NCBI GenBank assembly: GCA_004299555.1
Contig: SCQU01000002.1
Span: 1-64,000 of the forward strand
DNA from: Rhodanobacteraceae bacterium
GTDB lineage: Bacteria; Pseudomonadota; Gammaproteobacteria; Xanthomonadales; Rhodanobacteraceae
Direction of reading: 5' to 3'
Length of the DNA: 64,000 bases
In this document: in pieces, positions 426-23,313 of the stretch
How the letters are laid out: every line of letters starts with the position of its first letter
Position numbering within the stretch: the first letter of the stretch is position 1
The notes under the pieces: model-generated
The model's database searches: none
The model's input: only the letters and a program-made list of their open reading frames with translations
Told to the model about the DNA's origin: nothing
Made by a program: the position numbers and the translations under genes

Positions 426-553
426 CGAACTTATCCAAGCGCCGGTCCATTGGGTCGCTTGGATAGTCTCCTCGCGCGCCCTCCTCGCGCGCCAGTCTTG
501 TACCCGCTGTCGAGAGCGGAGAGAAATCTATCTCATTTTTTAAGGCCAGCACG

Positions 554-1075: not shown

Positions 1076-1136
1076 GGTTGCCCTCCTTCAATTCACAATA
1101 TACACTAATTACAAATTGCTTTCAAGATATTTTTAA

Positions 1137-2475: not shown

Positions 2476-2477
2476 GA

Positions 2478-3587: not shown

Positions 3588-5512
3588 GTTGCTTCCCCGT
3601 CCAGCAAATCCACGAGGTCTGCGAAGGTTATTGGAACGAAACCACCCCTGCGTGGCGTCAATCCATTGAAAGCAATGACGGGACCGCTCAGTTCCAGGAT
3701 GGTCCAGATCTTGCCCTTCGTCTTTCGGCCATGGATCAGCGTGAAGGCGTTATAGCCGACACCAAAGCGCAGAGTCTCGACCAGCTTGGGATGATCCATG
3801 ATTTTCGCAAAGTCGCCCCGTTCGATGCCGATCGCGTTAGCGCCCCCTCCCAGCGGGGCCGTGGGTTGCAAACTCCGAGCGAGGCACATCGCGACAATAC
3901 CTGTGACCAGTTTGCGCACCGAAATGGCGTGCGGAAAACTCCACTCGCGAACGATCTTCTCGCTGGCCTTACGGATCGCGTCGTGCTGTTGCTTCACGTC
4001 GAGGCTGGTGGATTGGTCGCCGCGTGTAATCTCCTGCGTCTGAAGCAAGCGGACTAATTCCCATGCAAGCTCTAGGAAGGTCTCGGCGTTCTCCGTGCCG
4101 AGGTCCGCAAGGGTATCGAGACCGCCCAAGTACGGGACCCTCAACTTGTGCCAGAGGTGCACCTGCGCACCAGCGGCAACGTCGATATCCGCGTCCACCA
4201 CAACATCTTCCGCCAAGGACGCATCACTCCCTGCATCGAACAAGGGCTGTTGAGGTGTGCGGTTGAACTGACGGTGCAATAAGATGGCTACCATTGCCGG
4301 AGCGATGGTTTCCGCATCTAGGTCGGCTTGATGGCCCACATAGGCATAGACTCGCTGCCGGATCTGCTCCACCTGTACGCGCGGAATTTTCAGTTCGTCA
4401 GCCGCACTCTCTGATAGCTTCCGAATCTGCTCCTTTTGGCGCTCAGTTGCGATCGCTTTGACGGCCAAACCAGAGAGGGTGGTGATCCCGTTTCTTGACA
4501 GGTCCGGAAGTTGCGCCATATATCGAGAAGCAATCTCTGCCGCGGCGCGCCGGAACGCCTTGCGGACCGCTCCGCGCTTTTCTTCCGGCGCTTGGGTCAT
4601 CCGGACATCGACCACGGTGCGCTGTCTTTGGATGTTGTCAGTGGCTGGCACCGCTCCAGCTTCGCCCCAAATCAACGCGTCTCTCGCATCCAAAGCTTCC
4701 ATGCGCTGCAGCACCCACCTAGCCATGGTGACTTCCCGTAAGGTCAGGTGCTCCATCAGTGCCTTGTGCTGCGCGCGATCCGCCCAGTGAGCATCATCGA
4801 TCATCAACAACGGCTTCAATGGTTCTGCATAGCCGGGCACCTGGAATCCATCGAACGCGAGAAGTGGGTAGAACGGACCGCCTAGCCTTTGAAGCAGCTC
4901 TTCCTCCGGGGGGGGCACGAAGCTTGCCGTAAGACCGTAGATAATGGATTCCACTTGCGCGGCGCGCTCGGCGATCTTGCCGAAGTGGGTGCCGCCAAGG
5001 TGCTCGAGGCGTGCTCCTCCCAGCGGCGTCGGCACGACTTCCACTGCTTCAGGCGCAATGCCAGCATCCTCGAAGGCCTGCCGCCAGGACAGCACGGCAC
5101 GCGCCCCGACCAAGCTCAGCATCAGCTCATGCGCTCGGTGCGGTTTATAGCCGATGAGCGCAAGTTCCCGGTAGTCGCGCTCGAAGGAAATCCGGGCCCC
5201 GAACACCACTGGGCGACCGTCTTGGATGAAGCCCCGCTCGGTCGCGAACTCCATCAGCTCGTCATAAACACGATCCGACGTCCGCTGCACTTGTTCGGCG
5301 AGGCGCCTGAGGGTGGTGAACTGGAAAAAGCGGGCGAGTGTAGTCTTGCCGCTGCCTGGAGGCGCAGAAAACACCGTCGTCTTGTTGAGCAGCTCATGCG
5401 GATCGTCGTAGTGATCCAGCGTCATCCTGAAAAGAGAGGGGGCAAGCGTTGCCAGGAATTCCGCTTCGTTGCGCCGGTACTCGCTCGCACGCTGTTGGAA
5501 GGGATTTGGCAT
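3584..5512 (-). CDS. ORC/CDC6-like AAA+ ATPase of the cassette
   Basis: A 642-residue P-loop ATPase. The Walker A motif FSAPPGSGKTTLAR is at about 48-61 and the Walker B LLMIDDAHWAD at about 235-245. The layout, with a short N-terminus, P-loop and a long helical C-terminal half, resembles the ORC/CDC6-like ATPases found in predicted bacterial conflict systems. It has no helicase motifs. It starts 6 bp after the PRTase-like gene and overlaps the next gene by 4 bp. It is the likely regulatory or sensory hub of the operon, coupling an invasion signal to the enzymes. No experimental link is implied by the sequence. Confidence 0.75.
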   Translation of the reverse strand: MPNPFQQRASEYRRNEAEFLATLAPSLFRMTLDHYDDPHELLNKTTVFSAPPGSGKTTLARFFQFTTLRRLAEQVQRTSDRVYDELMEFATERGFIQDGRPVVFGARISFERDYRELALIGYKPHRAHELMLSLVGARAVLSWRQAFEDAGIAPEAVEVVPTPLGGARLEHLGGTHFGKIAERAAQVESIIYGLTASFVPPPEEELLQRLGGPFYPLLAFDGFQVPGYAEPLKPLLMIDDAHWADRAQHKALMEHLTLREVTMARWVLQRMEALDARDALIWGEAGAVPATDNIQRQRTVVDVRMTQAPEEKRGAVRKAFRRAAAEIASRYMAQLPDLSRNGITTLSGLAVKAIATERQKEQIRKLSESAADELKIPRVQVEQIRQRVYAYVGHQADLDAETIAPAMVAILLHRQFNRTPQQPLFDAGSDASLAEDVVVDADIDVAAGAQVHLWHKLRVPYLGGLDTLADLGTENAETFLELAWELVRLLQTQEITRGDQSTSLDVKQQHDAIRKASEKIVREWSFPHAISVRKLVTGIVAMCLARSLQPTAPLGGGANAIGIERGDFAKIMDHPKLVETLRFGVGYNAFTLIHGRKTKGKIWTILELSGPVIAFNGLTPRRGGFVPITFADLVDLLDGEAT

Positions 5513-5518
5513 TGGCCG

Positions 5519-6655
5519 TTACTTGCTGTGACGATTGCGACGATAAAACAGCGGGCGCATTGCATGCGCTTGCTCGCCCTTTCCTTCGGATCGGGCCCAC
5601 AATAATGCGACGGAATTATTCGGCGTGTTGTGATCTAGTACCAGCGGCAATGCGCACCCCGCATAACCCATGCCCAAATGCTTTACGCCGCCCTTGTCGG
5701 TCGATCTCGTCTGGATGTTGGCGTCGTAGTATTTTTTTGTCAGCGCATAAAAGTCCGGATCACCGGCAGGAGTGAGTGCGAACCCGTTGGTCAGTTGATA
5801 GCTATAGGTTACTTCCACGTTCTTAAACCAGGGTAGATCGTTGGGCGATTCATCCTTGGCTTTACGCACCGCATCGTTCAGGTGATCGATTGCCTTGTCG
5901 GTAATGATCAAGTGATGGATCACCAGGGTCCAGTGCTCGGAATGGACGTTTTTCGCGTTCTTCAAAGATCGAAGGAAGCGCATAAGCTTGCCCTTCCACA
6001 TGCGCTTGCCGTGCTCATCGACCTCCGGCCGAATGAATGACGTTCCGGAACCCGCGAAGTCGTCTACCAGGTAGATCGTGTCGAAGGTGGGATCTTGCTG
6101 TGCCTTGAGTTCGCCGAGATCCTTCGCCAATTCCTTTCTAAGGTCCTCCCACTTTTCAGTGTCGAGCTGAATACCGACCACTACTTGTTCGTTCGAGATC
6201 CTGCCAACATTGACGTGCCGAAACGAGTCCAAGCGGGCGCCATCGCTCAACCCGAGAAACAAGGTGCGTCGGCGCGCCACGTCCAACTGGTGGCGGGCGG
6301 AACCGTCGGTATAGACCTGCCAGGAACTGATGCCACGGTCATCAGCAACACTCTTGAGCAGCCGCGGGAGAACGGTTTGCGGATACATGATCTCGACCAG
6401 CCGCTCCCGTTCCACCGCGCTAATGAAAGCCAGACGGTGACGCACGAAGGCGTAGGCCGCGGGCCGGTCTTGAGGATCGAATTGCAGGAGCCATCCAAGC
6501 AGACTTTCTAAAAAGCGCATGCCCGCTAGGAAGTCTCGGTAGCTGTCGTATTTAACAGCAGAGATCAGCCGGAGCCACTGGAACTCTTCCTGAGCCTTCT
6601 CCAGTTCCCACTGCATGACCTTGCCGAGCATTCGTAGCGCAATGGTTTCATTCAT
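5519..6655 (-). CDS. Phosphoribosyltransferase-like protein (PRTase-type fold)
   Basis: A 378-residue protein carrying the type I PRTase signature TIYLVDDFAGSGTSF at about 193-207, the loop that binds PRPP in phosphoribosyltransferases. Upstream are a long helical N-terminal region and the strand VVVGIQLD; downstream is a domain without known motifs. I recall a conflict-system family called PRTase-CE that pairs with ORC/CDC6-like ATPases, and this protein may belong to it, but I cannot verify that here. It overlaps the SIS-HAD gene by 8 bp and is followed 6 bp later by the ATPase gene. Plausible roles are phosphoribosyl transfer to, or phosphorolysis of, a nucleotide. Confidence 0.75.
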   Translation of the reverse strand: MNETIALRMLGKVMQWELEKAQEEFQWLRLISAVKYDSYRDFLAGMRFLESLLGWLLQFDPQDRPAAYAFVRHRLAFISAVERERLVEIMYPQTVLPRLLKSVADDRGISSWQVYTDGSARHQLDVARRRTLFLGLSDGARLDSFRHVNVGRISNEQVVVGIQLDTEKWEDLRKELAKDLGELKAQQDPTFDTIYLVDDFAGSGTSFIRPEVDEHGKRMWKGKLMRFLRSLKNAKNVHSEHWTLVIHHLIITDKAIDHLNDAVRKAKDESPNDLPWFKNVEVTYSYQLTNGFALTPAGDPDFYALTKKYYDANIQTRSTDKGGVKHLGMGYAGCALPLVLDHNTPNNSVALLWARSEGKGEQAHAMRPLFYRRNRHSK

Positions 6656-8555
6656 CTGTCTGCCCCTTAAATCGCATCAGTCCCTTGGACGCTTCGAATA
6701 GCTTCAGCTGGTAGCAGGTTGCCGCGACCTGCCGACGAGAGGTGCCCGCGAGATTCCAGCAACGGTCCTCGGCACTCGAACACTGGTCCGCTGACAGGCT
6801 CAATGGCATCTGCAAAAGCTCGAAGTCGTTCCCGGGCCATCGTCCCCGATCACCAATGCACAGCACATCCTCTGGAAGGCAATTTGCTTGCGCTGCTATG
6901 GCGCTGATGACATTCCGCTTGGAAACCCCAGCCGACACGATATCAATGGAATGCGAGGACTGCCAAACCGTAAGCTGACCGGCGTCTACCAGATCGTGCA
7001 GAGCCGCGGCGACTTCGCACCAAGCCTCGCTCAGGCTGCGTCCGTCGAGAAGAGAGACTGAGCATTGTTTGGCATACACCCGGCACCGCCCCCTACCTGG
7101 CCTGAGCACGTAGCGCCCGATGCGCCGCTTGGCTTCCTGGATCACGGCATCTTGCTCGGCTGCAGTCGGTTTCGATTCGCTCAATGGCCGAATGACGGCG
7201 CCGTTGTAATAGCCAATCGAAACGCGCTTCCAGAGATCCCGAGACAGCTGCCTACGAAGTTCTTCACCACATGAGCCACCGCGCCCGGTAGCGATGCCGA
7301 CACGCACCTCAGCGGCCAACAATCGGCGCAGCTCATCGACGATTGACAGGTCTAGCCGCTCGTACCGGCGGGACGATTCGATCAAGGTTCCGTCGAAGTC
7401 GAAGACCACGGCAGGAATCTCCGCAGCGTGGAGTTTTGCCCGGTAAGCCCGCAGCCTGTCCAGCCATAAGGCGAGTTCCGCTTCGCTCAGGGAGAGTGCG
7501 TGCCGGCCGAGCTTGGCCATGACGATTTGCTCATCATCAGATGTAGCGGCGTGCTGTGGTTTGGTAGGAACGGCTAGCTTGTAGATCTGTTCGCCAAAGG
7601 CCGGAACGCCTGGGCGCCCCGGGTCGCGGTGAATCCGTTCGCCCATCCGCTGGGCAACGAACATGGAGGCGGCGATGGAAGCGAGCCGGGCTTTGGACCC
7701 TGCAAAGGGCACCTCAATGCGCCAAGCTGGCGAAGCCTGGCTGATAAGCGCGACGGTTTGGTCGGCTAGTGGCAGATACGGCGGTGTGGCGAAGCACAGC
7801 GCTGCCGTCGCCATTCCCCGTTCGGCGAACCAGTAATGCCGCCCGTGACCGAGATTGCGCAGGTCCGAAACCCAGACGTTTGCCAATGCTGCTTCGGTTG
7901 CCCGCATCTCCAAATCAGCGAGTCCCAACATCGTCTCCGGGTCCCCGATGCCCACAACATCGCCACCCCACTCCGGAAGTCCTTCGATGGTGGCTTTGGC
8001 CCAGTCCAGCAGGTGGACCACCTCTTCCATCGACACCTCAGGCCGATCGTTGAACCCTGCTTGGTAAGCGCGCTCCAGAAGCAGACAGGAGGCCCAGAGA
8101 CTATTGGTTGCCAAAAAACCGTCGCCACCTGCGGAGAGCGTAAATGCCACCGTCCGGCTGGCGCCGTAGCCGGCCAGCATCCGCTGTAGGGGCGTGTCTT
8201 CGGCTGCGATCAGCGCTGTGACGGATTGCGAACCGGCCGAAATTGCATGCTCACAAGCCTGGAGGATGTCGAGATTGCGCCCCCCGGCGCTGAGTAGCCA
8301 CACGCAGCCACGCGCGTAAGACGCACTGCTCTGGAAGATTAGAGGGGTAACGACTCGGCAGGGATGGCCGAGTGCTTCCTGATGGAGTTCTGCCAAGTAT
8401 TGAGCGGGGGTCTGGGATCCACCCGAGGCGACAATGACCAGGCCATGCCCTACGCTGTCCTCAACGGCGCGCTTGAGCCGTTCAATTGGAAATGCGTACG
8501 ACTCCTGGGTCGTGCGGCCCAGCTTTTGGAGTTCCTCGCGGTATGGCTTCCCCAT
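6648..8555 (-). CDS. SIS domain-HAD phosphatase fusion, first gene of the cassette
   Basis: A 635-residue two-module enzyme. The N-terminal half looks like a pair of sugar-isomerase (SIS) subdomains, with IVASGGSQTPAQ at about 41-52 and LGHGRHYWFAERG at about 235-247. The C-terminal half is a HAD hydrolase: VVFDFDGTLIES at about 383-394 (nucleophile and acid aspartates), VGIATGRGG (motif II), and VLCIGDRGRWPGNDFELL (motif IV). The predicted chemistry is recognition of a phosphosugar followed by dephosphorylation. It leads the operon from an ATG at 8555 and overlaps the PRTase-like gene by 8 bp. The promoter should lie in the 420-bp gene-free stretch upstream. Confidence 0.85.
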   Translation of the reverse strand: MGKPYREELQKLGRTTQESYAFPIERLKRAVEDSVGHGLVIVASGGSQTPAQYLAELHQEALGHPCRVVTPLIFQSSASYARGCVWLLSAGGRNLDILQACEHAISAGSQSVTALIAAEDTPLQRMLAGYGASRTVAFTLSAGGDGFLATNSLWASCLLLERAYQAGFNDRPEVSMEEVVHLLDWAKATIEGLPEWGGDVVGIGDPETMLGLADLEMRATEAALANVWVSDLRNLGHGRHYWFAERGMATAALCFATPPYLPLADQTVALISQASPAWRIEVPFAGSKARLASIAASMFVAQRMGERIHRDPGRPGVPAFGEQIYKLAVPTKPQHAATSDDEQIVMAKLGRHALSLSEAELALWLDRLRAYRAKLHAAEIPAVVFDFDGTLIESSRRYERLDLSIVDELRRLLAAEVRVGIATGRGGSCGEELRRQLSRDLWKRVSIGYYNGAVIRPLSESKPTAAEQDAVIQEAKRRIGRYVLRPGRGRCRVYAKQCSVSLLDGRSLSEAWCEVAAALHDLVDAGQLTVWQSSHSIDIVSAGVSKRNVISAIAAQANCLPEDVLCIGDRGRWPGNDFELLQMPLSLSADQCSSAEDRCWNLAGTSRRQVAATCYQLKLFEASKGLMRFKGQTDE

Positions 8556-8975
8556 TGCGCTTCTCAGTTCAGCCCGGCCCAGCCCAGAGAGTCAGACAAG
8601 GCTATCTCATTCGCTGCCACCCGAGTTCGGGCAGCCAAGGGGTACGACGAGTTAGCCGCAGCCGACATAGCGGCGAAATGCAGAAGGTCAAGGTGGATGG
8701 CCGCAGTCTCACAAACTGCGACGCTCCACCTGGATGTGCTGTTCCCAGTCAAGCATCCCCTCGCGAGCTGCTGCCTGTCGCCGGGCTACCGCATCGCCAT
8801 CGTTGGTCAAACTCAGTCCGGTGGTCAGCAATTTCCAGACTGAAATACTCAGCCAATGAGCGCAGGTGCGATGCGAGTCCGGTCAGGCTGCATTGCGACC
8901 ACTCGTAGCTCCTCGGATGTACGAACCGCTGGCCCGCGCGGTAAGCTTTCAGTCCCAGCGGTTGTGTGAGGTCGG
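8556..8975. other. Gene-free spacer between the cassette and the tniQ copies
   Basis: No gene is supported on either strand. It should contain the promoter of the minus-strand five-gene operon. The last 40 bases resemble the sequence just before the intact tniQ (both have GGTAAGCT about 40 bases before the start), so they belong to the duplicated segment. Short open frames here lack recognisable products. Confidence 0.5.
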
Positions 8976-8978
8976 GTG

Positions 8979-9351
8979 GTGGTGAGTTCCGTTGCTACGG
9001 TGCGATTGGGCTTTATGCCGTTACTCAGAACGGGTGATTTTCTATTCAATGCCTTCGTGTTGCGCCATCGCATGATCGGTGGAGGTACGGTGGTTGACAT
9101 GGTCAAGGAGATGCGCGGCACGGATGGCATGTATCAAGATGTGTTCGGTGGCGATGCTGCAACCGCTACCCGTCGCGTCCTTGGGTACGATGGAATCAGT
9201 AAAGGATACTCTCGAACGACATACGGTGCTCGGTGCTTATCTTGGCGCCTTGTTTCGCGCCGCTGAACATGCCTGCATTCGATCACAGATCCGGGGACAG
9301 CGAAGTGATGTGGTGCATCGCTTGGTGCTTGGTAGCGGACGCTTACCATAG
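8979..9351 (+). pseudogene. Frameshifted N-terminal duplicate of tniQ
   Basis: The first frame gives RLGFMPLLRTGDFLFNAFVL, closely matching VGFMPLLGHGDLLYNAFVL of the intact tniQ that follows. Near position 9200 the similarity moves to the next frame, which reads LERHTVLGAYLGALFRA and then ACIRSQIRGQRSDVVHRL; the intact copy has MHHTLLGAYCRAMSQV and ACINSKARRRSTDVTRHL. It stops at 9351 before the zinc-finger region. The upstream sequence is also duplicated, at an offset of 479 bp. The copies differ at many positions, so the duplication is old. It is unlikely to make a working protein. Confidence 0.8.
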
Positions 9352-9457
9352 TCCTCGTCGCAAATTTGACTGTACTTCATGACCGGCTTCGTGTCTTCAA
9401 CCCAAGGTTCGCGTGAGGTAAGCTCCGGCGCTTGGCGTTGTGTTACGAGGTCTGGTT

Positions 9458-10744
9458 ATGGTTGATTCCACACTTTCGACTTTGGTCGGCTTCATGCCGC
9501 TCCTCGGTCACGGCGATCTTTTGTACAACGCCTTTGTTTTGCGCAATCACATGTTCGAGGGCACGACCCCCGACGAAACCGTGATGGACGTGCGTGGCAC
9601 GCATGGCAAGGCGCTGCATGCCTTCGGAGATGGCGCGGAATGCATCGTGCCTCGCGTATTTGGACCGAACGCCAGCACGCGAAATGCGCTGATGCATCAC
9701 ACGTTGCTTGGTGCGTATTGTCGGGCCATGTCTCAGGTTTCCGAGTCCGCATGCATCAACTCCAAGGCGAGAAGACGCAGTACGGACGTCACACGTCACC
9801 TCGGGTTGCGCCAAGGAGCACGCGCGCTGACGACTTCGAGCCTGCGGTACTGTAGACGCTGCGTTGAGTCGGATACGGACCAGCGAGGGTTCGCGACATG
9901 GCGCGTGTTACATCAGATTCGCTCCGTGGGACGATGCCCGACCCATGGAGACTTGTTGGTGGACGAAGGTGAATCATTGCGCTCGACAAGCGATGGAACG
10001 AAACCTGCGCATTTTCGTCTGCCCGGAGAATCGGGTTGCGAAGCACCCAACAACCCGTTGCCAATGTCCGAGGGTTACGCAGCCTACTTGGAACTTTGGC
10101 GACTGGTATTCGATGGTGAGCTTCCCGTGATGCGACCGGAGCCGTGGCGTGAGTTGATGGGGAACGTTGTGGTGCGGCTCGGCGGCACACAACAAGCGCT
10201 GTACGCCATCGAACAAGTAATCGAGTCCACCTGGGAACTGCCCGTCGCCACCCTCGACGAACGCCTATCGCTGGATGGGGGCGCTTCGTTCGTCGAAGCC
10301 GAGCTGGCGCTTGTGAGCCGACCGAAGGACTTGGCACGCCGGCTGATCGTTTATGCCGCGGCGCGTCACGCCGGTGTCATCACTGAAGAACACGAGCAGT
10401 TTGCGTTAGTCCGCTCGCGGGTGGTGGTAACGAACCCTCATCCTGGAGCCGCGGCACCACAGCAGGATCTTTACCGAGAGTTGTGGGAAATCGTAGCCTC
10501 AAAAGGTTACCCGATAGCCTTGGTCGAGGCGCTACTCGAGAACGTGCGCGAAGCGGATGCGGCGAGGATGTGCGGGCTGACTCCGGGGATGATCTCGTTA
10601 CTTGTGAGGCGTGTTCCTGAGACGACGCTATTGAAGCTTGCGACCAAGGCCGGCGATGTGCCCAGGACCTCGTGGATCGGTCGGGAATTGACTCGTCGCC
10701 ATCTCAGCGTTTCGACGATTTCGAGTCCGGGTCATCCAGACTGA
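9458..10744 (+). CDS. tniQ: TniQ-family transposition target-selection protein
   Basis: About 428 residues from the ATG at 9458, which has ACGAGGT at RBS distance and aligns with the start of the duplicate; a GTG at 9440 is also open. The N-terminus VGFMPLLGHGDLLYNAF is typical of TniQ/TnsD proteins. A zinc-finger pattern follows: RYCRRC, then HQIRSVGRCPTHG, the Cys/His arrangement of the family. The C-terminal part is helical and lacks the WLYRHDRDWL signature of TnsD. TniQ recruits TnsC to targets, including in CRISPR-guided Tn7-like elements. Its last 41 bases overlap tnsC tail to tail, an unusual opposite orientation. Confidence 0.88.
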   Translation: MVDSTLSTLVGFMPLLGHGDLLYNAFVLRNHMFEGTTPDETVMDVRGTHGKALHAFGDGAECIVPRVFGPNASTRNALMHHTLLGAYCRAMSQVSESACINSKARRRSTDVTRHLGLRQGARALTTSSLRYCRRCVESDTDQRGFATWRVLHQIRSVGRCPTHGDLLVDEGESLRSTSDGTKPAHFRLPGESGCEAPNNPLPMSEGYAAYLELWRLVFDGELPVMRPEPWRELMGNVVVRLGGTQQALYAIEQVIESTWELPVATLDERLSLDGGASFVEAELALVSRPKDLARRLIVYAAARHAGVITEEHEQFALVRSRVVVTNPHPGAAAPQQDLYRELWEIVASKGYPIALVEALLENVREADAARMCGLTPGMISLLVRRVPETTLLKLATKAGDVPRTSWIGRELTRRHLSVSTISSPGHPD

Positions 10745-12188
10745 GGTCCGGCTGGTGCTTGTCAAGTCCGGCTAGGATATCGAGGGATCGCGCGGCGACG
10801 CGTAGGTCGTCCGGTCGCAACGTTTTGAGCAGTTCCCGGTTTCGCGCCTCACGTGCTGCGCTGACTCGGCGATCCCGTTTTTCAGCGCGGCGAAGTTTTT
10901 CGACGGTGGATGCTGCACTGGTCGGATCTGCAATCGGCGAACGCGGGGCTGGTGTGACGTGCTCCGTGTGCTCAGCCGCGGGCGAATCGCGCGACAAATC
11001 CGAATACCCAGCTTCGGGTGACGCAGTGCCAACCAGCCAACGAGCCATCTTGACCAACTGGACTGTCCGAGGTGACTCGCACGCGCGCCGAAAATCATCC
11101 GCAGTGAGTGTCGCTGCGGTGCCACCTCTTCGCAGTGCGATGCGTTGTGCCTCCATATACAACTTCACGAAGATTCCGGGCACGCCTGCGCTCCTTGGAT
11201 GCGCTGCATCGAGGATTTCCTCCTGATCAAGGATCTCGTCGCACAGATTGAACCGCATGATTCCGGGAACCAGCACACGCTTCCACCAGGATTCCTCGCC
11301 AGTCTTGGCACGCGACAGAGAGAAGTACCCAATGTCGGAAAAACGCCTCATCACCTGTGCTTCCTGGCTCAAACCCTCGAATGCACGAGGGTGTCCAGAG
11401 AGGATCACTGGAATGCCGACATTCAGCAGCGACAAAAAAAGCCGCACAAATTCCCAACTCAGAGGGCTCCTGCCGAAGTTGTCCCACTGCAATTCGTCCA
11501 GAAATAACATGCCAACCCGGTGCATGGTCAGCACCTTTGTGACCAGGAACAGTGATGCGTCGATGTTTCGCAACCGTAGGCGCTTGCCCGCGTAGTCTGT
11601 GCCGATAAGCGAGTCGACCCCGCCGAGGATGCGTTCAATCAGGGCGCCACGCGTGCCGTTGGTTGGAAAGTCGACTCGCAAATAAAGGATTTGAGTCAGT
11701 GTTGACCAGCCGCACGCTTCCGATCTCCCGTGTATCACGAATTGCTGGGGCGCAATCACCTCGAGCGCCCGCCGCACGATCGTCGTTTTTCCGAGACCCG
11801 TTTCGGCAGCGATGATTCCACCACTGGCAGGGTTACTCAAGGCGGGCAGAGATTGGCTTTGATGGACCGCACTTGCCAACGCGAGTTGATTGATGCGCTT
11901 CTGTTCCGCCGGAGCTAGCGGGTTGCGCCGATCGAAGCTCGCGCGAATCGCATTCTGAATGCTGGAGGCAATCTCTACGGCGTAACCCGTCGGAAAGAAA
12001 TGCTGGTCCTGCAAGCTCAAGAGGGGTTCACGCATCTCAGGGGCAGATGACTTCCAGTCGACGTTGCTCAGGGGTTCGTGATGCAGCGCCTGCGGCATCG
12101 CCGACAAGGGGATGTATGGCACAAGTGCTTCGGTCAGAGGATTACTGTTGGTTGCGGACGGGATCTCGCTAGACGTCGGCCGCTCCAT
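10704..12188 (-). CDS. tnsC: TnsC AAA+ transposition regulator
   Basis: A 494-residue AAA+ ATPase. Walker A AAETGLGKTTIV is at about 127-138 and Walker B VGMLFLDELQWDN at about 225-237; SGHPRAF around 263 looks like sensor 1. Tn7-like TnsC forms ATP-dependent filaments on DNA that link the target selector (TniQ or TnsD) to the TnsA/TnsB transposase. The basic, charged C-terminal tail of about 100 residues is where TnsC proteins usually contact TnsA/B. Its ATG overlaps the tnsB stop by one base, indicating translational coupling. The length is close to Tn7 TnsC. Confident family call. Confidence 0.9.
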   Translation of the reverse strand: MERPTSSEIPSATNSNPLTEALVPYIPLSAMPQALHHEPLSNVDWKSSAPEMREPLLSLQDQHFFPTGYAVEIASSIQNAIRASFDRRNPLAPAEQKRINQLALASAVHQSQSLPALSNPASGGIIAAETGLGKTTIVRRALEVIAPQQFVIHGRSEACGWSTLTQILYLRVDFPTNGTRGALIERILGGVDSLIGTDYAGKRLRLRNIDASLFLVTKVLTMHRVGMLFLDELQWDNFGRSPLSWEFVRLFLSLLNVGIPVILSGHPRAFEGLSQEAQVMRRFSDIGYFSLSRAKTGEESWWKRVLVPGIMRFNLCDEILDQEEILDAAHPRSAGVPGIFVKLYMEAQRIALRRGGTAATLTADDFRRACESPRTVQLVKMARWLVGTASPEAGYSDLSRDSPAAEHTEHVTPAPRSPIADPTSAASTVEKLRRAEKRDRRVSAAREARNRELLKTLRPDDLRVAARSLDILAGLDKHQPDLSLDDPDSKSSKR

Positions 12189-14407
12189 CAGAGTCCACCC
12201 AAAAACGCGTCAACGGCGTTCTCTGCCGCACTGTCACCTGTGGGGGAGGAGCTTTGAATCGGCGATGTCGAACTTGTACTTCGTGATGGTCCGGGATGGT
12301 GAATCTTTTCGACGAGCTCCTGCTCACGAATGGCGTTCCGACGCAAATTTTTGCGCTGCGAGGTTTTTGAAGGCTTCTTTTTGGCGGCTTGTATCTCCGC
12401 CTGCAGCTCGCGTGCGGCCTGGATTGTGATGGCATCTCGCCGCAGCGCGGTGTCGACCTCGTTCTGCTCTTGCTCGATTGCACGTTGGCGCCGCACTGGC
12501 GCATCCAAAACATAACGGTGTTCCATGTCGGCCACGGTATCCAAGCGCATCGCTTCACGGTCGGAGACCACGTTGGCGACACGAAGTAATCCGCGCGACG
12601 AAGGTAGCCAGAGTTCGGCGATGTTTTCAGGTTCAAAGCGGACGGAGGCGGGCAAAACCTTCCTTTCAGTGCTCGCACGAACGAAACGCGGATCTCCACG
12701 CAGTTCCTCACAGAAGAAGCGGAGATCGCCAAGATTCCGGTTGCCGTCGGGGCTCTTGACCACGATACCGTTGTATTGGATGACAGCTCGCCACTCCGGC
12801 AGTGTCAGTGCGCGTAGTTGGTCAAGGTCGCACGGGATGTCGGCGCGCTGACCGTGGTCGCGGAGCCACTTGAACACATTGATGCGAGTCGGTCGAACGC
12901 CGGCGTTGAGCATGGCCGTAGGCGCGAGGTGCTTCACCTCCTGTTGGTTGTACTCAAGGATCCAAAGAAGCAACTCACGCATGTATTCCCAGTAATTCAG
13001 CAACGCGTCGTCTGCCGGGTGCGGCATGCCCCGTTCCCGTCGCTTTCCGTGGGTGGTGCCGGCTAGTTGGTGATCGACCTTCTTGTGATCCGTACGGTGC
13101 TGTGTCTCCACGGTCCCCTTGCTGGAGCCGTGATACGTGCGCGCAAACTCCATGCCGAAGCCGACTTGTTGTTCGGCTTCAGTCACGCTCGCGGCCTTCA
13201 ATTCGCCATTATCGACGAGGTACACCCTGAAAAGCATTCCAGGCCAGTCGTCTTCGCCAATGGTGATGTCGAAGCGCTTGCACAGTTCGACTTTGTTGGT
13301 AGCAGCGCAGTAGATGGTGCGCAAACCGGTTCGGGGGCTCGGATGATCCCACCCGCAATACACTCCCATATACGCGGTGGAGCGAACGTCCATCACCAGA
13401 GAGCGTGTCATCGGCGGGAGCTTTTCCAGGCGCGAACGCATGGATGTCAGGTACACATCAGCACTCGTCGCGTCGAACATCGCGACCTGTCCCACCGCTG
13501 CAGCCAGATCACGCGCGCTGCCACCGCGATGGGTTGCCGCGGCACGGCGGCCTAACCCAAGCCGCACCGCTCTTGCGGAACTTCCGGTCGTCTTGGCGCC
13601 CCAATATCGAAAATGCCTCGGCGTCGGTCGCTGATCGGGGGGGAGAAGTTTCACATGCTTTCCGCCGAGCTCGTCGATGGTCATTGACGACCAGAACGCT
13701 ATGCAGGTCTCTGTGTAGGCCTTCTGCGGTGTCCGTTTCGGAGAGATCAGCGTGTAGCCCAGGGCCAAGCGGTCCTTGTCACGCTGCGACAGGAAGAACG
13801 GCGCCTTCGTTGTTGCGCTGTTTTGATGTGGCAGTCGGCTCTGCCTTCGCTGGTATTGCCTTCGCTGCTGGCCCTTCGCGCCGCATCGGTGCGATTCTGG
13901 AAAAAGTCCGTTGAGTGTCGAGCCGTTCGCCCAGTAAACATGAAGCGTGCGGTACACGGTTGGCGCAGATACGTGCTGGACACCTGCTTGCTCGAGTACG
14001 AGTTTGCGTATAAGAGAGTGCCTGAAGCAGCCGCCTTCCAGCTGTTCGATGATGGGCTTGATCATCGCCCAGCGTCGATCTCGTTTTTTTAGGCGGTCAC
14101 GCCGACGGAGCCTTTCGCTTTCATCCGTGATTTCGTCGACGTAGTCTTCGTCGCTCATCAGCCAATGGCCCGGAGGGGTGAATCGCGCAACTCGAAGTTC
14201 GTCCTGCGACAGAGCGGACTCGAGTGCATCCAACGCAAAGGCACGGGGGCCCAGCACGTAGCCTTTTCTGCGCCCGTTCTTTTGTGACTGTGGCAATGGA
14301 ATGCACCACGCAATTGAACGCGCCTTGTCTACGGCGAGAACGCGGTGAGGACCGGACAAGCGGGTTGACTGCAACGTCGGGGTAAGGATCTGGTTAACGA
14401 TCAGCAT
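12188..14407 (-). CDS. tnsB: TnsB DDE transposase
   Basis: A 739-residue Mu/retroviral-integrase-type transposase. Candidate catalytic residues are D312 in VAMFDATSAD, D399 in VYLVDNGEL and E434 in GTVETQHR, a full DDE set with the spacing expected for TnsB. The N-terminal 200 residues hold the DNA-binding region (HTH-like LIRKLVLEQAGVQHVSAPTV), followed by a basic stretch rich in Arg and Gln. TnsB binds the end repeats and cuts and joins the 3' ends. It overlaps tnsA by 7 bases and tnsC by one. No damage is visible, so it appears functional. Confidence 0.92.
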   Translation of the reverse strand: MLIVNQILTPTLQSTRLSGPHRVLAVDKARSIAWCIPLPQSQKNGRRKGYVLGPRAFALDALESALSQDELRVARFTPPGHWLMSDEDYVDEITDESERLRRRDRLKKRDRRWAMIKPIIEQLEGGCFRHSLIRKLVLEQAGVQHVSAPTVYRTLHVYWANGSTLNGLFPESHRCGAKGQQRRQYQRRQSRLPHQNSATTKAPFFLSQRDKDRLALGYTLISPKRTPQKAYTETCIAFWSSMTIDELGGKHVKLLPPDQRPTPRHFRYWGAKTTGSSARAVRLGLGRRAAATHRGGSARDLAAAVGQVAMFDATSADVYLTSMRSRLEKLPPMTRSLVMDVRSTAYMGVYCGWDHPSPRTGLRTIYCAATNKVELCKRFDITIGEDDWPGMLFRVYLVDNGELKAASVTEAEQQVGFGMEFARTYHGSSKGTVETQHRTDHKKVDHQLAGTTHGKRRERGMPHPADDALLNYWEYMRELLLWILEYNQQEVKHLAPTAMLNAGVRPTRINVFKWLRDHGQRADIPCDLDQLRALTLPEWRAVIQYNGIVVKSPDGNRNLGDLRFFCEELRGDPRFVRASTERKVLPASVRFEPENIAELWLPSSRGLLRVANVVSDREAMRLDTVADMEHRYVLDAPVRRQRAIEQEQNEVDTALRRDAITIQAARELQAEIQAAKKKPSKTSQRKNLRRNAIREQELVEKIHHPGPSRSTSSTSPIQSSSPTGDSAAENAVDAFLGGL

Positions 14408-15318
14408 GACGTCCTCCCGAACAACCGGTTTCGAAGTTCTTCACGGCATGCGTGGCCTCCAGGCAACAATGGCGACGCCATGGACAAGGGCTGCTGGAGA
14501 TCGACGTCGATGTCCAGCCTCCACATCGCGAGCTGGGCGGCAAACTGGGTCTGCACTGGGGACCAATCGAGGCCGCGGCTCGCGTCATCGATCGCCTCGC
14601 TTGCCGCTACGGTGAATGCCGTTTTGCGCACACGGTCCAGGAAAACTTGATATGCGTATGAGGCGACGATTTGGTCGATCGCTGCGCGTGGGCGGAGGGG
14701 CGCCAGCCACTCGAGCTGTCGTACCAGCGCAGCAGGCACTTGTTCCGGGTAAACCAGACGATGCTCGATGCCGGCGACGTCGCAATACCGTCGATCCAGC
14801 TCAAGGCGCTCCATGATTCGATCGGACGGCTGCGCGCTCAGTACGAGATCAAGTGGTTTGCAGCTGATGCCGAGGAGTTGAGTTGGCGCGTCGGCTTCCC
14901 TTTGGAACGTCACCATCAAATCGATCGTAAGAATGCGGTCGACCGACAACCCTGGGTAGCAATAGACCGGGATGCCTGCTGCATGCGCAACGTCCGTCAT
15001 CCCTGGGTGTCGCGGCCACTCCCTTGCACTGTCGACCTCAGCAAGTGGGCTGGGATGCGGCCATGGCCACAGAGGAAATTGTTCTCTCACGTCTTGGGCG
15101 CCCGCCCACCACACGAGGTGACTGACGGCGCGCTCACCACGCGACAAAAAGTAGCAGTGCCTCTGCACCATCGGCATTCGTACGTAGCTGATGTTGCTGC
15201 AGGTCGACGAGGCGGATTTGTGCGGCATCAACCAGGGTCGGTAACGGTCCCCCGTTCCGCTCCCCCGCCCGCTGGCAATAAGACGATCGATGAACTCACG
15301 CGTGACTTTCGGTCGCAT
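14401..15318 (-). CDS. tnsA: TnsA endonuclease
   Basis: I place the start at the ATG at 15318: GGAGG lies ten bases upstream, and MRPKVTREFIDRLIASGRG matches the usual TnsA N-terminus. This gives 305 residues; an upstream GTG at 15427-15429 is in frame. Candidate catalytic residues are E62 (LSRGERA), D133 (TIDLMV) and K154 (ISCKPLD), the E-D-K set of the restriction-enzyme-like TnsA fold, which cuts the 5' ends so that the element moves by cut-and-paste. The C-terminal domain is longer than a minimal TnsA and probably binds TnsC and DNA. First gene of tnsA-tnsB-tnsC. Confidence 0.9.
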   Translation of the reverse strand: MRPKVTREFIDRLIASGRGSGTGDRYRPWLMPHKSASSTCSNISYVRMPMVQRHCYFLSRGERAVSHLVWWAGAQDVREQFPLWPWPHPSPLAEVDSAREWPRHPGMTDVAHAAGIPVYCYPGLSVDRILTIDLMVTFQREADAPTQLLGISCKPLDLVLSAQPSDRIMERLELDRRYCDVAGIEHRLVYPEQVPAALVRQLEWLAPLRPRAAIDQIVASYAYQVFLDRVRKTAFTVAASEAIDDASRGLDWSPVQTQFAAQLAMWRLDIDVDLQQPLSMASPLLPGGHACREELRNRLFGRTSC

Positions 15319-15434
15319 AACTTGTGCACCTCCGTGCCGACCGCGCCGTGGTGCGGCTGCGGTTTGTTCAGGCAACACGACATCGTCCAGACGCTGTCTG
15401 GGCTTGATCGCGGATAGGGAAAGGTGCACAATGC

Positions 15435-15455
15435 GATTGCGTCGCTAACGCAATC
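15435..15455. repeat. Perfect 8-bp inverted repeat upstream of tnsA
   Basis: GATTGCGT and ACGCAATC are separated by five bases (CGCTA). It lies in the spacer between the small gp16-like gene and tnsA, immediately before a terminator-like hairpin. It could be an operator for the small DNA-binding protein or an RNA hairpin in the tnsA leader. Confidence 0.6.
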
Positions 15456-15462
15456 CAACTCG

Positions 15463-15494
15463 AGACCTCGGTGCCAGCCGAGGTCTTTTGTTTT
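15463..15494 (+). terminator. Rho-independent terminator-like hairpin, plus-strand direction
   Basis: AGACCTCGG (15463-15471) pairs perfectly with CCGAGGTCT (15478-15486) around a six-base loop, and is followed by TTTGTTTTT on the plus strand. It points away from tnsA towards the 3' end of the minus-strand gp16-like gene. No plus-strand gene is upstream, so it may end an unrecognised short plus-strand transcript starting near 15320-15430, or limit antisense transcription into this locus. Confidence 0.7.
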
Positions 15495-15517
15495 TGGCAC
15501 CTGTGACGCGTATAGAG

Positions 15518-15787
15518 CTACGTCATGGCGGGCCTCCGTTGAGCTCTATCTGGCTCCCTATTGCGGGCGGGCAATTCACCGTGAGCGTCGGCGCGCGGAT
15601 CGGCTTTGAGGCCGAGGGCTATTGCGATCCGGTGTGCCTGTCCGCGTCGACCGCGGAGCCTTCCTGTCAGTACGCCATAGACCAAATCCGGGCTGAACCC
15701 GTGTTCCTTGGCCCATTCGGCGGTAACGATCCCTCGCGCTGCGAATAACTCGCGTGTCTGCTGAAGGCTGCGTGTCGTCGGAGTCAC
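15518..15787 (-). CDS. Small DNA-binding protein, BcepMu gp16-like
   Basis: An 89-residue protein. Residues 6-62, including ELFAARGIVTAEWAKEHGFS and LVYGVLTGRLRGRRGQAHRIA, resemble the phage-associated BcepMu gp16 family of small HTH regulators found in Mu-like phages and some Tn7-like elements. The C-terminal 25 residues are basic and proline-rich. It lies directly upstream of tnsA on the same strand, so it is a good candidate regulator of transposase expression. The inverted repeat at 15435-15455 may be its target. Family call from memory of the motif. Confidence 0.75.
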   Translation of the reverse strand: MTPTTRSLQQTRELFAARGIVTAEWAKEHGFSPDLVYGVLTGRLRGRRGQAHRIAIALGLKADPRADAHGELPARNREPDRAQRRPAMT

Positions 15788-17269: not shown

Positions 17270-18445
17270 TCAACGTGACTTCCAGCTACCGGTCTGGTCG
17301 TAGTTCAACGATCGCTCGTAGCCGAACGCGTTCCAGACCGAGTCGAAAGCTGGGCGCATCACCGTCGCAACATCCGGTGGCCACTCGTCGACCGAGATCT
17401 CAGGAATGATGAGCGTGTCACGATCGGCATATCGAGGACCGTCGATCGCGTACCGCCAGGTGTTTACTCCGAGGCTGTACCCAGCCACGCCTACGCAAGA
17501 AAGAAAAATGTACAGTGGCGGAGCAAAACCAAGATCCCGCATGGCTTGCAGGTAATTGGAGAGAGCCTGCAAGGTATCTTGCTCAAACGAGATGCTCGGG
17601 ATGATCGTATCGGGCTCATGGCCATGCGCCCGATAAGCCGCCACGGATTCAATGACACCGTTGCGGAATAGCTGTGCGTAGGATTCCGATTTGCCGTCAG
17701 ATACTTCCGCGTAAGTCAAGCGTCCGTCGAGGTTGTAGCGCTGACTCCAACCTCGTGCGCCAGGCGGTGCAATTCTCAGCAGACTCTGCGATTGACCGGT
17801 AATCTCTATGTGACGGTCACTGGTCATGCTTTCCAAAGGGATGACGTGGAGCACGATGCGTGCGCCTCTGTCCAACGGTACAGGCGTGTTTCCGCCCCCG
17901 ATCATCATCAAGCGATCGGCTCGAAAACCACGGATACGTTCGGCGACAGTCTGCGAAAGCGTGAATGCCTGCCGCAGTTCGCCAACATCGAGCCGGTAGG
18001 AGCCGGACGCGTTGCGCCCGTAGAAATGGGCATGGCCTCCGGTAGTCACGCGGTGCGGGGCGTTCCAACTTTTGGCTACGCGTACAAGAAGAGCCTCACC
18101 GCCGGCTGCAAGCGGGACGAACTGGTATTGGACGATACCGGTGAGTCGCGGTTCGACGCCATCGGCACAGAGACTTTCGAATCGCTGCCGTACCAGATCC
18201 TGCGACGGCATTTGTAGTGCGTGTAACGCATCTGCGCACCCGCCGTCTTCGGCAATCCCATAAATTAGATCGCCGCCCTGCGTGTTGGCGAACGCGGTGA
18301 CTTCACGCAGGAACTTTACGTTCCCGCCATTGCCCGAATCGGGTAGCTGTTGTTTGTATTCCAGCTGCCGACTTTCAGGGGTGCGTGATGCGATCAACGC
18401 CTGCAGGTCTGCTTCAGTGATGGATTCAACAGGCTTGGCGATCAC
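17270..18445 (-). CDS. Schlafen/AlbA_2-domain putative DNA-binding protein
   Basis: A 391-residue protein with a GTG start and AAGGA about nine bases upstream. The N-terminal 160 residues form an AlbA_2 (Schlafen-type) domain: RQLEYKQQLP at about 26-35, FLREVTAFANTQGGDLIYGI at about 45-64, and HRVTTGGHAHFYGRNASGS at about 130-148. The C-terminal half does not match a family I know and has no membrane segments. AlbA_2 domains bind nucleic acid or nucleotides and occur in several anti-phage systems. It follows the reverse transcriptase by 66 bp on the same strand, as the last gene of the hsdR-M-S-RT operon, so a shared function is likely. Confidence 0.8.
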   Translation of the reverse strand: MIAKPVESITEADLQALIASRTPESRQLEYKQQLPDSGNGGNVKFLREVTAFANTQGGDLIYGIAEDGGCADALHALQMPSQDLVRQRFESLCADGVEPRLTGIVQYQFVPLAAGGEALLVRVAKSWNAPHRVTTGGHAHFYGRNASGSYRLDVGELRQAFTLSQTVAERIRGFRADRLMMIGGGNTPVPLDRGARIVLHVIPLESMTSDRHIEITGQSQSLLRIAPPGARGWSQRYNLDGRLTYAEVSDGKSESYAQLFRNGVIESVAAYRAHGHEPDTIIPSISFEQDTLQALSNYLQAMRDLGFAPPLYIFLSCVGVAGYSLGVNTWRYAIDGPRYADRDTLIIPEISVDEWPPDVATVMRPAFDSVWNAFGYERSLNYDQTGSWKSR

Positions 18446-18511
18446 GACGACACGTCCTTCCTATCGGAATCGGTGCCTCAAGTGCGATTGGCCTACGACC
18501 GGAAACTGCGC

Positions 18512-20575
18512 TCATGGTGCGATGTCACTCCTTGCCAGCTCGCTGACTGCCGCCACCAGCAATCGCCTTGATCGAGCTAGGAACCGAAAAGGAATTTTAC
18601 CGGTTGGTCGTCCGGAGTTTCGAACAACTGGATGCGAGCCCATGCTTTCGAAACGCCGTTGATGGACTTCACTGGCAAGCTTGTACGTCATCGGGTACTT
18701 GGTGGCGAACTTGGACGATGCGGAACCAAGAGCGCTTCCGATATGGCCTAAGTTGTATTTCCCGATTCCACCGTCTGCATGAAATAATGCGTCGAGCAAG
18801 CGGTCATTGAACACGTCGAGCAGGTTGACGAAGCTCGTGATGTTGACCTTCGAAGCCGCGACAGCTTCCACAATCTGCAGCTCGGCGTACTTGTAGTCGC
18901 GCCCGAACAGGCATCGCCAGTTCAATATCGCGATAGTCCTGTCTAGCTTGGAGAGCGAGTGCTGGATGCCGCAGAATTTTGCTGTTGACCGGCGAATCAG
19001 GCCAACCTCGCGCAACATGAGCGCGGCCCTTTTGTTCCAGTCGCGCCGTCGTCCGGAGGGTACATGGTCAATCTGGAATCCGATCCAAGCAGCCGCAAGC
19101 GCCGGCACGCCACGGACGTCATGCACCCCCGTATCGACGACGCTCTGCGATGTAGCAAGGCTGACGGTTTTGCCGTTCGTCGCCTCAATCAATTTCGCGC
19201 GCACCCACCATGATGGCGCCACCTTGCAGGCGTAGCGGATCTGCCCGTCAGTAAGTGCCCCCGCGCGTATCAGGAACAGCCCTGCCGCGACCATCAGATC
19301 AGCTTGCATGGACTTCGGCGCCCATAGCCCCTTGAGGTATTTGGTCAAAGCCCTGTCTTGCGTTTGCGGAAGCCGACCGTCGGCCGCCGAAATGAATTCC
19401 GCGCACACCGACTGGTAAAGATCGCTGTTCTTTATCGTCACCACGACGTGTTCGGCAGCCACGCGCGGCAGCTTCCCATAGCGACTCAGGTACCTGCAGA
19501 TGTTGCGATAAACCTCGGGGTGCCTCTCAAGCACCTTCCACAGGCGTTCCGTCAGCTTCGCGGATGGTTGCGCATTTGCCAGCAGGTACTTGAATCGAGT
19601 GGGGTTCGCGATACGGTGCCGCGGCGTCAGTTCGCGAAGCCTGGCAAGCAGGCGCTTCTGATCGACGAGCCGAAAGCTGATGGATGGTTCCGGCGGGTTC
19701 GATACGGTCTTGAGCTCCTCATCGATACTTGTAACGCGGTGGATATCGATTTTGCTGCCCTGCGGAAACAGGCCGATGTCCTTGCTCTTGCGGTCCAGCG
19801 CGACCAGCAGCCTTCGCAGCGTGTGCTCGTCGCGGGCGAACAGGCGGATGTCATCGACGTAACGTAGATATCGGAACTCCGAGTGTTTCACGTTGAGGTC
19901 ATCGAAGTACGATAAAACGACTTCCGACAGCAGCCCCGACGAAAGCGGCCCTTGCGGAATGCCGTGGCTATGGAAGATGCCTTTGTCGGTCGCGGCCCAC
20001 GTACCCAGCCAGTCCGTAAGTTTTCGACAGAAATCGGGCTCGAATCCCAGCCTGGCGAGGAAGTGGCGCAGCACGCTGTGATCGAGGCTGTCGTAACAAG
20101 CCGTCAAATCGAAACTCGCCCCGTAGATGAACCTGTCGTCGACGGCCTTGCGCGTTGTGTCGTTGTATGCCTTGTATCCAGCACTCCACTTGCGGTAGAA
20201 CCATGCCGACGACTTGCCGGCGTACAGATGCCCGAAGACTGACTTCAAGTATCGTTGCCGAACCTTGGGGAACAGGCGCTCCGCCACGAGATTGACAGCG
20301 GCCTGATAGACGATCTGATCCTCCACGCTGAGCAATGAATAGGGGCGAAGCACGCCCGACGGCTTCGGAAACAGGATCTTTGTGGCCGGGTCCGGGTCGT
20401 ATATCCCTCGCTTCAGGCGGTCGGCGACATCATTGAGCAGCGCGTCCTCTGCCGCAGCGAAATGCTGGTACAGGGATCGAAAGTACGATTTGTAGCTCGC
20501 ATCGGCGTTCGACTGAATCCAGCGCCACGCCCGCCGGAGATTGTCCAACTTCCGCAGTTGGGTAAGCGCGGTCAT
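18512..20575 (-). CDS. Reverse transcriptase with a large C-terminal extension, restriction-operon associated
   Basis: I use the ATG at 20575, nine bases after the hsdS stop; an in-frame TTG at 20581 is also open. In 689-residue numbering the RT core shows SFDLTACYDSLDHSV (motif A, about 156-170), GIPQGPLSSGLLSE (motif B, about 207-220) and YLRYVDDIRLFA (motif C, 238-249; catalytic DD at 243-244). About 350 residues follow the RT core with no motif I recognise. No maturase (X) or HNH domain is apparent, so it is not a typical group II intron protein. It resembles the unknown-group/defence-associated RTs. Placement straight after hsdS implies co-expression with the type I restriction system. 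Confidence 0.85.
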   Translation of the reverse strand: MTALTQLRKLDNLRRAWRWIQSNADASYKSYFRSLYQHFAAAEDALLNDVADRLKRGIYDPDPATKILFPKPSGVLRPYSLLSVEDQIVYQAAVNLVAERLFPKVRQRYLKSVFGHLYAGKSSAWFYRKWSAGYKAYNDTTRKAVDDRFIYGASFDLTACYDSLDHSVLRHFLARLGFEPDFCRKLTDWLGTWAATDKGIFHSHGIPQGPLSSGLLSEVVLSYFDDLNVKHSEFRYLRYVDDIRLFARDEHTLRRLLVALDRKSKDIGLFPQGSKIDIHRVTSIDEELKTVSNPPEPSISFRLVDQKRLLARLRELTPRHRIANPTRFKYLLANAQPSAKLTERLWKVLERHPEVYRNICRYLSRYGKLPRVAAEHVVVTIKNSDLYQSVCAEFISAADGRLPQTQDRALTKYLKGLWAPKSMQADLMVAAGLFLIRAGALTDGQIRYACKVAPSWWVRAKLIEATNGKTVSLATSQSVVDTGVHDVRGVPALAAAWIGFQIDHVPSGRRRDWNKRAALMLREVGLIRRSTAKFCGIQHSLSKLDRTIAILNWRCLFGRDYKYAELQIVEAVAASKVNITSFVNLLDVFNDRLLDALFHADGGIGKYNLGHIGSALGSASSKFATKYPMTYKLASEVHQRRFESMGSHPVVRNSGRPTGKIPFRFLARSRRLLVAAVSELARSDIAP

Positions 20576-20584
20576 CAGCAACCG

Positions 20585-21742
20585 TCACGCAGGCCGACGC
20601 GCAAACAGGCGTTCGAGGGTGGCGGGGATCAATACGGCGCTGGCTTCCCTCAAGGCGGCGTGGCGTGCCTTGAGTGCGGCAATGGTGGATTGGAGGGTGA
20701 CGAAGGCCTGTTGAGCGACGAGCGGAGGGATGGGGATCTCGGTGGCGGCCAGTTTCTCAACGCCTAGCGTCCGGTTGCGGCCTGCTCCTCCCGGTGACGC
20801 CGCACGAATCTTTTCAAGCCCCTCTGGACTCAACAGGTAGTAATGGACAAACTCAGTGTGTGCGAAACCCGGATTCACTACGCAAGTCATGAACCGGTGC
20901 GAACCAAAACGGCCGTGGTCATCGGCGCTTGCAATCGCGATAGCGCCCTCCCAAGCGAACACGTTGGAGAAAAGCAGGTCACCTGCTTCGATGCGAAACA
21001 GACGTTTGGTGCCGACCTCCAGGCCGGAGATTGCTGGTTTGTGGAAGGTCCCCTTCCCGAATGAGCGAATACCGAGCTCCGGGTAGCTCGCCTCGGGATC
21101 AATAGGTACTACACGGCGGACCAGCGGCGCAACTTCCGCCATAGGACGATACGTTGCCCCAGCGATTGTCTGCTGGAATTGCTGGGCCAGCAAGCGATCG
21201 GCATCGGCCTCGATGGCTCCGAGGTGCGCGGTCAGTTGGCGGGTCTTGTCGGCCAGCGCATCGAGGTAGGCGGTGATTGCGTGTTGCTCATTCAGCGACG
21301 GCAGCGGGATTTCAAGCCTAAGGAAGAACCTTTCCTTGAAACGGTTACGTGTCGTTGGTGTACTACCTGTGCAATCTTCTTCCACACGCTGCCACGTGGC
21401 GGGGAGCTGAAACCAACGATTGAGGAAGGCCGTATCAAGCCGCGTGTTATCAACATGAAATAGCGGGAACTCATTGGATACATAGCATCCATGCAAGTCT
21501 GAACCAATCAGGCCGAACGCACCACGCCACGCGAAAAGTCGACTGTAAATGAAGTCGCCCGCTTCAACGCGGTGCAGCCGCGAGGCCGAAGTTTCCGTAC
21601 CAGCAACGGTCTCGCGATGGAAGGCACCGTTACCTTCAAGGCGCACACCAAGCAACCGATACTCACCATCTGGCACCACAGCTTCGCCACGATCGACCTG
21701 CGTCACCAACTCACCGAGCGGAACGCATGGCCACTCACTCAT
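20585..21742 (-). CDS. hsdS: Type I restriction-modification specificity subunit HsdS
   Basis: A 385-residue protein with two target-recognition domains. Each is followed by a helical spacer: FRLEIPLPSLNEQHAITAYL near 150-170 and TEIPIPPLVAQQAFVTLQ near 335-355, the conserved PLP..EQ..I signature ending each TRD. HsdS directs the methylase and nuclease to a split DNA target. The ATG overlaps the hsdM stop by 4 bases. Both TRDs look complete. The reverse transcriptase gene begins 9 bp after its stop codon. Confidence 0.9.
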   Translation of the reverse strand: MSEWPCVPLGELVTQVDRGEAVVPDGEYRLLGVRLEGNGAFHRETVAGTETSASRLHRVEAGDFIYSRLFAWRGAFGLIGSDLHGCYVSNEFPLFHVDNTRLDTAFLNRWFQLPATWQRVEEDCTGSTPTTRNRFKERFFLRLEIPLPSLNEQHAITAYLDALADKTRQLTAHLGAIEADADRLLAQQFQQTIAGATYRPMAEVAPLVRRVVPIDPEASYPELGIRSFGKGTFHKPAISGLEVGTKRLFRIEAGDLLFSNVFAWEGAIAIASADDHGRFGSHRFMTCVVNPGFAHTEFVHYYLLSPEGLEKIRAASPGGAGRNRTLGVEKLAATEIPIPPLVAQQAFVTLQSTIAALKARHAALREASAVLIPATLERLFARRPA

Positions 21743-23298: not shown

Positions 23299-23313
23299 GG
23301 AATCGGGTTCTTT

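Follow-up and report, generated by a model that had tools for sequence, protein, structure and literature searches.

A Tn7-like transposon at glmS with an IS66-split tnsD and a second, convergently encoded TniQ protein

Introduction

Canonical Tn7 targets glmS with TnsD alone and inserts about 20 bp beyond the glmS stop codon (PMC2918618). Two TniQ-family proteins can also occur together: 998 dual TniQ-TnsD loci are already known (PMC10293859; Faure et al. 2023, whose full set comprises 5,072 proteins), and according to a review, elements with two targeting pathways usually obtain them through a separate TniQ protein for each (PMC11406308). Here we describe an element that extends into the start of a 64,000-nucleotide stretch of a Rhodanobacteraceae genome (GenBank assembly GCA_004299555.1, contig SCQU01000002.1, positions 1 to 64,000; hereafter the window). 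Contig C25 starts with the window; the left part of the element lies on the neighboring contig, C22. The element is a Tn7-like transposon inserted at the glmS attachment site, attTn7; it carries tnsA, tnsB and tnsC, a tnsD gene, and a second TniQ-family gene that runs tail to tail with tnsC. Our data make it likely that this is a dual TniQ-TnsD element in which TnsD serves glmS and TniQ serves a second pathway that does not involve clustered regularly interspaced short palindromic repeats (CRISPR), and that an insertion of the IS66 family has since split tnsD. The use of a second TniQ in CRISPR-free Tn7-like elements is a general question; the dual kind is known, and the interest of this element lies in its divergent TniQ and the target of that protein.

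Results

The element occupies the canonical attTn7 site

Six copies of one 20-bp TnsB-type motif mark the two ends of the element, three per end and in opposite orientation, on the left in C22 near tnsD and on the right beside glmS. All six score 22-27 bits with a position weight matrix (the right-end sites 22.9-26.8), while the next best score in the window is 12.8; the matrix was built from these same sites, and its informative part is the gap between their scores and the remainder of the window. Searched genome-wide, the site pattern matched at the two element ends only. At the offset set by the site alignment, both termini read 5'-TGGTAAG and are flanked by a perfect 5-bp duplication whose center is 22 nt past the glmS stop codon (Table 1). 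This insertion position is the canonical attTn7. With these termini and this duplication, the element spans C22:151080, in the last 1.5 kb of C22, to window position 26078, about 27.6 kb plus an unassembled insertion sequence (IS). Its GC content is 59-61%, against 68% in the flanking chromosome. The element is Tn7-like in combining TnsB and TnsC with TnsA and a TniQ-family protein, multi-site opposed ends and a 5-bp duplication.

Table 1. Features of the element and its target. Positions are those of the window unless a contig is named.
Feature	Position	Strand	Evidence
IS66-family 3' end (TnpC C-terminus + terminal repeat), inside tnsD	1..112	+	C-terminal peptide LTDVLTRLPTTQARDIDTLLPIA matches annotated IS66 transposases
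tnsD 5' part	C22:151266 to ~152,460	C22 end	also matches PF15978
tnsD 3' part	113..428	+	129-425 matches PF15978 TnsD, E=1.4e-14
Cargo: NADAR protein, PfkB kinase, CARF6-domain protein, ORC-CDC6-like ATPase, PRTase-CE protein, HAD phosphatase protein	554..8555	-	Pfam, PADLOC
Decayed partial tniQ copy, N-terminal part only	8967..9366	+	39% identity to TniQ residues 3-108; in-frame stops, frame change
tniQ, intact, 434 codons, second TniQ-family selector	9440..10744	+	PF06527, E=7.8e-9
tnsC, AAA+ regulator	10704..12188	-	Tn7 TnsC, E=1.7e-21; G682 homologue 41%
tnsB, DDE transposase	12188..14407	-	Tn7 TnsB, E=3.8e-29, D-D-E aligned; G682 homologue 39%
tnsA, endonuclease	14401..15429	-	Tn7 TnsA, E=7.7e-11; G682 homologue 41%
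BcepMu gp16-family helix-turn-helix (HTH) protein	15518..15787	-	TIGR04111, E=1.9e-21; kept upstream of tnsA in G682 (57%), seen also in G113 and G071
Cargo between tnsA and right end: SLFN/AlbA_2 protein, UG19-type reverse transcriptase, type I restriction-modification hsdS, hsdM, hsdR	17270..25812	-	Pfam/PADLOC
Transposon right end	25989..26078	-	TnsB-type sites at 25989, 26033, 26053; terminus ...CTTACCA
Target-site duplication CAGGT	26079..26083	.	identical to C22:151075-151079, left of left terminus; perfect 5 bp
glmS, attTn7 target gene	26103..27935	-	open reading frame (ORF); 83-84% matches in congeners

Other placements were tried and rejected. A right end beside tnsA (15.8-16.1 kb) was ruled out, with no repeats or site there; the true end is 10 kb farther, at glmS. 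A TGTGG terminus yielded no duplication and was dropped in favor of TGGTAAG. A left flank shared with congeners via a TonB receptor was rejected because the C22 gene is a paralogue and the orthologue is on C19. Beyond glmS, the DNA differs among congeners. The two TonB-dependent receptor paralogues (G000:C22 147109-149964 and C19 133660-136503) are 69% identical; the C19 copy has a conserved neighborhood, and the C22 copy, near the left end of the transposon, adjoins a ParDE-like pair.

An IS66-family insertion splits tnsD

Contig C25 begins inside an IS66-family element, whose end, gctgacgcttac, is followed by GCAGCAAG. C22 ends with GCAGCAAG + gtaagcgtcc; after GCAGCAAG come an IS66-type terminal repeat, which the repeat on C25 matches, and the start of an ORF. 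The insertion duplication is thus the 8 bp GCAGCAAG, and joining the flanks there, across the empty site, restores a single tnsD frame of 508 codons. Since PF15978 is also matched in both halves, tnsD is complete but interrupted, by the same IS that broke the assembly. Over its whole length, the rejoined TnsD shares 33-34% identity with TnsD-type proteins from Azonexus and Oryzomicrobium, and it contains a TniQ domain of its own. With tnsD split, homing to glmS has probably been lost in this strain.

The original prediction, made from the window alone, had reported a TnsD remnant and had pointed to the sequence left of the window as a place to look for cas genes or an intact tnsD. The remnant next to tniQ is in fact a decayed TniQ copy (8967-9366), but a real tnsD fragment is present at ~113-428. 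The sequence to the left does hold the 5' part of tnsD, on C22 and cut off by the IS66-family insertion, but no cas genes were found in the part that belongs to the element.

Coupled tnsABC genes converge on an intact tniQ

The genes tnsA, tnsB and tnsC are all intact and are coupled by overlaps of 7 bp (tnsA/tnsB) and 1 bp (tnsB/tnsC). The intact tniQ converges on tnsC from the opposite strand and overlaps it by 41 bp. Both the coordinates and clear homology, to structurally characterized Tn7 proteins and to PF06527, agree with the prediction on this arrangement. Its further claim of complete catalytic residues stands for the D-D-E triad of TnsB, the Walker A and B motifs of TnsC and the E, D and K of TnsA, but not for the Gln of the Tn7 TnsA active site, which is replaced by Ser (ISCKP) here and likewise in a related element in genome G682, described below. 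The HTH protein encoded upstream of tnsA is a probable regulator of the tns operon. This BcepMu gp16 family is known from Mu-like phages, and several Tn7-like elements have one of its genes upstream of tnsA: besides the window, those in G682 (C1:1127124-1127426), G113 (C21:5138-5446) and L026 (~8861-9001).

When 398 genomes of the order were searched with TniQ, one full-length homologue was found (E=5e-47), in G682, a genome of another family. The tniQ reading frame is open throughout in both elements, at 30-31% identity, and the zinc-finger Cys/His positions are kept; tniQ has therefore long been under selection. In a selector tree of 24 proteins, TniQ of both elements forms a separate deep branch (support 100/100), and it is therefore not a recent copy of TnsD. 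Close relatives outside these genomes amounted to one weak match in plasmids and none in viral contigs. A structure prediction for TniQ was too poor (mean predicted local distance difference test score, pLDDT, 38) and was not used. The decayed tniQ copy sits directly before the intact gene; at 39% identity, it records an old event.

One could envision that TniQ is a relic and that the element is dying. The broken tnsD and the decayed tniQ copy fit this explanation, but it has to account for a tniQ that is open over its full length in both elements at 31% identity, zinc-finger residues included, and we consider it very unlikely.

A related element at glmS shares the gene plan

The G682 element is 34 kb long and has both selectors intact and different cargo. 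Its tnsD and tniQ are co-oriented, 13 bp apart, and convergent on tnsC-tnsB-tnsA and the HTH gene; cargo and then glmS follow. Its ends bear repeated sites, TGGTG termini and an AAAAA duplication, at nearly the same spacing from the glmS stop. Identity between the two elements is 39-41% for TnsABC, 44% for TnsD and 57% for the HTH protein. In a comparison of all ORFs, the two have only these proteins and TniQ in common, plus weak similarity between type I restriction genes. TnsB and TnsC trees, which contained no CRISPR-associated transposon (CAST) proteins, both place the two elements together (support 96/99 and 100/99), separate from a betaproteobacterial clade and from another that includes Tn7-type elements. 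Given the matching gene plan at glmS in G682, the tail-to-tail tniQ is an old inherited feature of this lineage and not an accident of this strain. The tnsD and tniQ genes are adjacent in G682; here they are separated by 8.5 kb of cargo that has come in between. As predicted, then, TnsD and a separate TniQ coexist, in both elements and both times at attTn7; the scenario raised against that prediction, in which relatives at glmS have this TniQ and no TnsD, is not what G682 shows.

In the selector tree, TnsD groups with the TnsD proteins of G682 and of a third genome, G113 (36-47% identity for the latter). TnsABC of the G113 element are very different, and its second TniQ protein is a different one. 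TnsB-type end sites lie next to glmS and also where the tns-carrying contig begins, and it is the match between these sites on two contigs that links the G113 element to glmS. Because G113 shares the TnsD group at glmS despite its different TnsABC, TnsD, not TniQ, is the part that tracks glmS.

These comparisons bear on the main rival explanation, in which TniQ and TnsD act jointly in one glmS pathway, TnsD binding DNA and TniQ bridging to or stabilizing TnsC, with no second target. Both elements with this TniQ sit at glmS, and the co-oriented tnsD and tniQ of G682, with their 13-bp gap, probably form one transcript. However, canonical Tn7 needs only TnsD for glmS (PMC2918618), TnsD already has a TniQ domain, and the G113 element at glmS pairs a TnsD of the same group with a different second TniQ. 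We therefore regard a joint pathway as unlikely, though a serious competitor.

The element is rare. No close homologue emerged from a TnsB search among 100 relatives, and when genome contigs were scanned with a TnsB alignment, only four distant betaproteobacterial elements came up, which form a separate clade. Where complete, these encode a pair of TniQ proteins in line behind tnsC; the TnsB-type site matrix gave no clear ends when run on them. An Azonexus hydrophilus plasmid (L020; NZ_CP151407.1) has a glmS gene at 266164-267984, and about 5 kb away lies a Tn7-like element that encodes two TniQ proteins; no transposon end was found beside that glmS. Another attTn7 element (L028; G434:C7:33001-53000) has the order glmS-tnsABC-tniQ (419 aa)-tnsD-like (504 aa), in a single direction, with type I restriction cargo.

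No CRISPR, TnsE or TnsF partner of TniQ was found

Pfam and PADLOC scans of the main ORFs found no cas genes in the element, the interior of the IS66 gap being unassembled, and the element contains no CRISPR array, no short-range direct repeats of 20 or more nt and no Rfam match. The absence of both, predicted for the window, is thus confirmed across the delimited element. A search for Cas1, with a control that succeeded in 9 of 14 genomes, returned nothing from either the host genome or G682, and the G682 element showed neither cas genes nor an array. The proposal that TniQ serves CRISPR-guided targeting is not supported by these results. TniQ could still be a CRISPR adaptor whose Cascade has been lost or is supplied by the host: type I-B1 CASTs likewise have a TniQ next to a glmS-type TnsD (PMC11406308), and PADLOC reports weak matches to CAST TniQ models. 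Set against the missing cas genes, arrays and Cas1, and against TnsB and TnsC whose PDB matches to Tn7 are far stronger than those to any CAST protein, such a role is extremely improbable.

TnsE had no Pfam match in the scanned element ORFs; there is no TnsF gene beside tniQ, and no recombinase-like ORF among those of the element. The all-ORF comparison of the two elements yielded no candidate adaptor gene kept in both. The suggestion that TniQ uses another adaptor has no matching gene among those that the two elements share. With no conserved adaptor gene, any partner of TniQ is probably a host factor, or the C-terminal part of TniQ does the work.

Cargo

Cargo flanks the tns genes on both sides. 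To the left, a cluster in one direction (2478-8555, minus strand) encodes the CARF6-family protein (PADLOC E=2.5e-81), the ORC-CDC6-like ATPase, PRTase-CE and the HAD phosphatase, and looks like an undescribed or little-described signaling-type defense cluster. To the right, the UG19-type reverse transcriptase (PADLOC RT_UG19, E=3.8e-168) adjoins the Schlafen/AlbA_2 protein and the type I restriction system; the genes at 17270-20581 (minus strand) are probable defense cargo near the right end of the transposon.

Discussion

Our data suggest that the element used its own machinery to insert at attTn7. In this machinery, TnsA and TnsB would cut and join, and TnsC would connect them to the target, fed by two TniQ-family selectors. 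TnsD would have recognized the end of glmS and directed insertion to it; the canonical position, the orientation, the duplication and the homology of TnsD are observed, and we infer the binding from them. The convergent TniQ probably serves a second pathway, and dispersal by transposition into other DNA is the most likely one. It would act directly or via a host factor, and not via CRISPR, TnsE or TnsF, since it is independently conserved and has no co-conserved partner. The IS66-family insertion has split tnsD later, in this strain, leaving TniQ as the only intact selector.

Several points weigh against this reading. Binding of TnsD to glmS is deduced from homology and position; TniQ evolves fastest among the core proteins; a single full-length homologue was found among about 760 genomes searched with TniQ; and no TniQ target was found. 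In addition, the C22-C25 join is based on the duplications and the reading frame.

More tentatively, the TniQ lineage might be a new kind of selector, one that directs TnsABC to a target alone or via a host protein, needs none of Cas, TnsE and TnsF as a partner, and by itself lets elements stay mobile once TnsD has been lost. The strain offers a natural tnsD knock-out, with TniQ as the sole selector left. Two related elements of the same order, with mapped ends, the same selector pair and a small regulator as the only other shared gene, make the target or partner of TniQ directly testable.

The element resembles Tn7 in its TnsA, TnsB and TnsC homologues, its TnsD-family selector (PF15978), its 5-bp duplication and a right end by glmS at the canonical distance; each end also has several TnsB sites, of which the two outer ones at the right end abut. 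Unlike Tn7, it has internal tnsABC genes with cargo on both sides, a left-end tnsD that runs against tnsABC, an additional TniQ protein and no TnsE match, and its termini are TGGT where those of Tn7 are TGTG.

Dual TniQ-TnsD elements without CRISPR (Faure et al. 2023; PMC10293859) are similar in carrying a longer TnsD-like and a shorter TniQ-like protein beside TnsABC, with no cas genes. The present element differs in its convergent order and in the deep branch of its TniQ, as judged in a tree of 24 proteins. Type I-B1 CASTs (PMC11406308) likewise combine a glmS-type TnsD with a separate TniQ, but no Cascade genes, array or host Cas1 were found here. Tn6022, which has TniQ and TnsF, with TnsE on the opposite strand (PMC10293859), also joins TnsABC to an opposite-strand selector gene. 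Unlike Tn6022, this element has no TnsF or TnsE homologue among its ORFs, it sits at glmS rather than comM, and its opposite-strand gene is TniQ itself.

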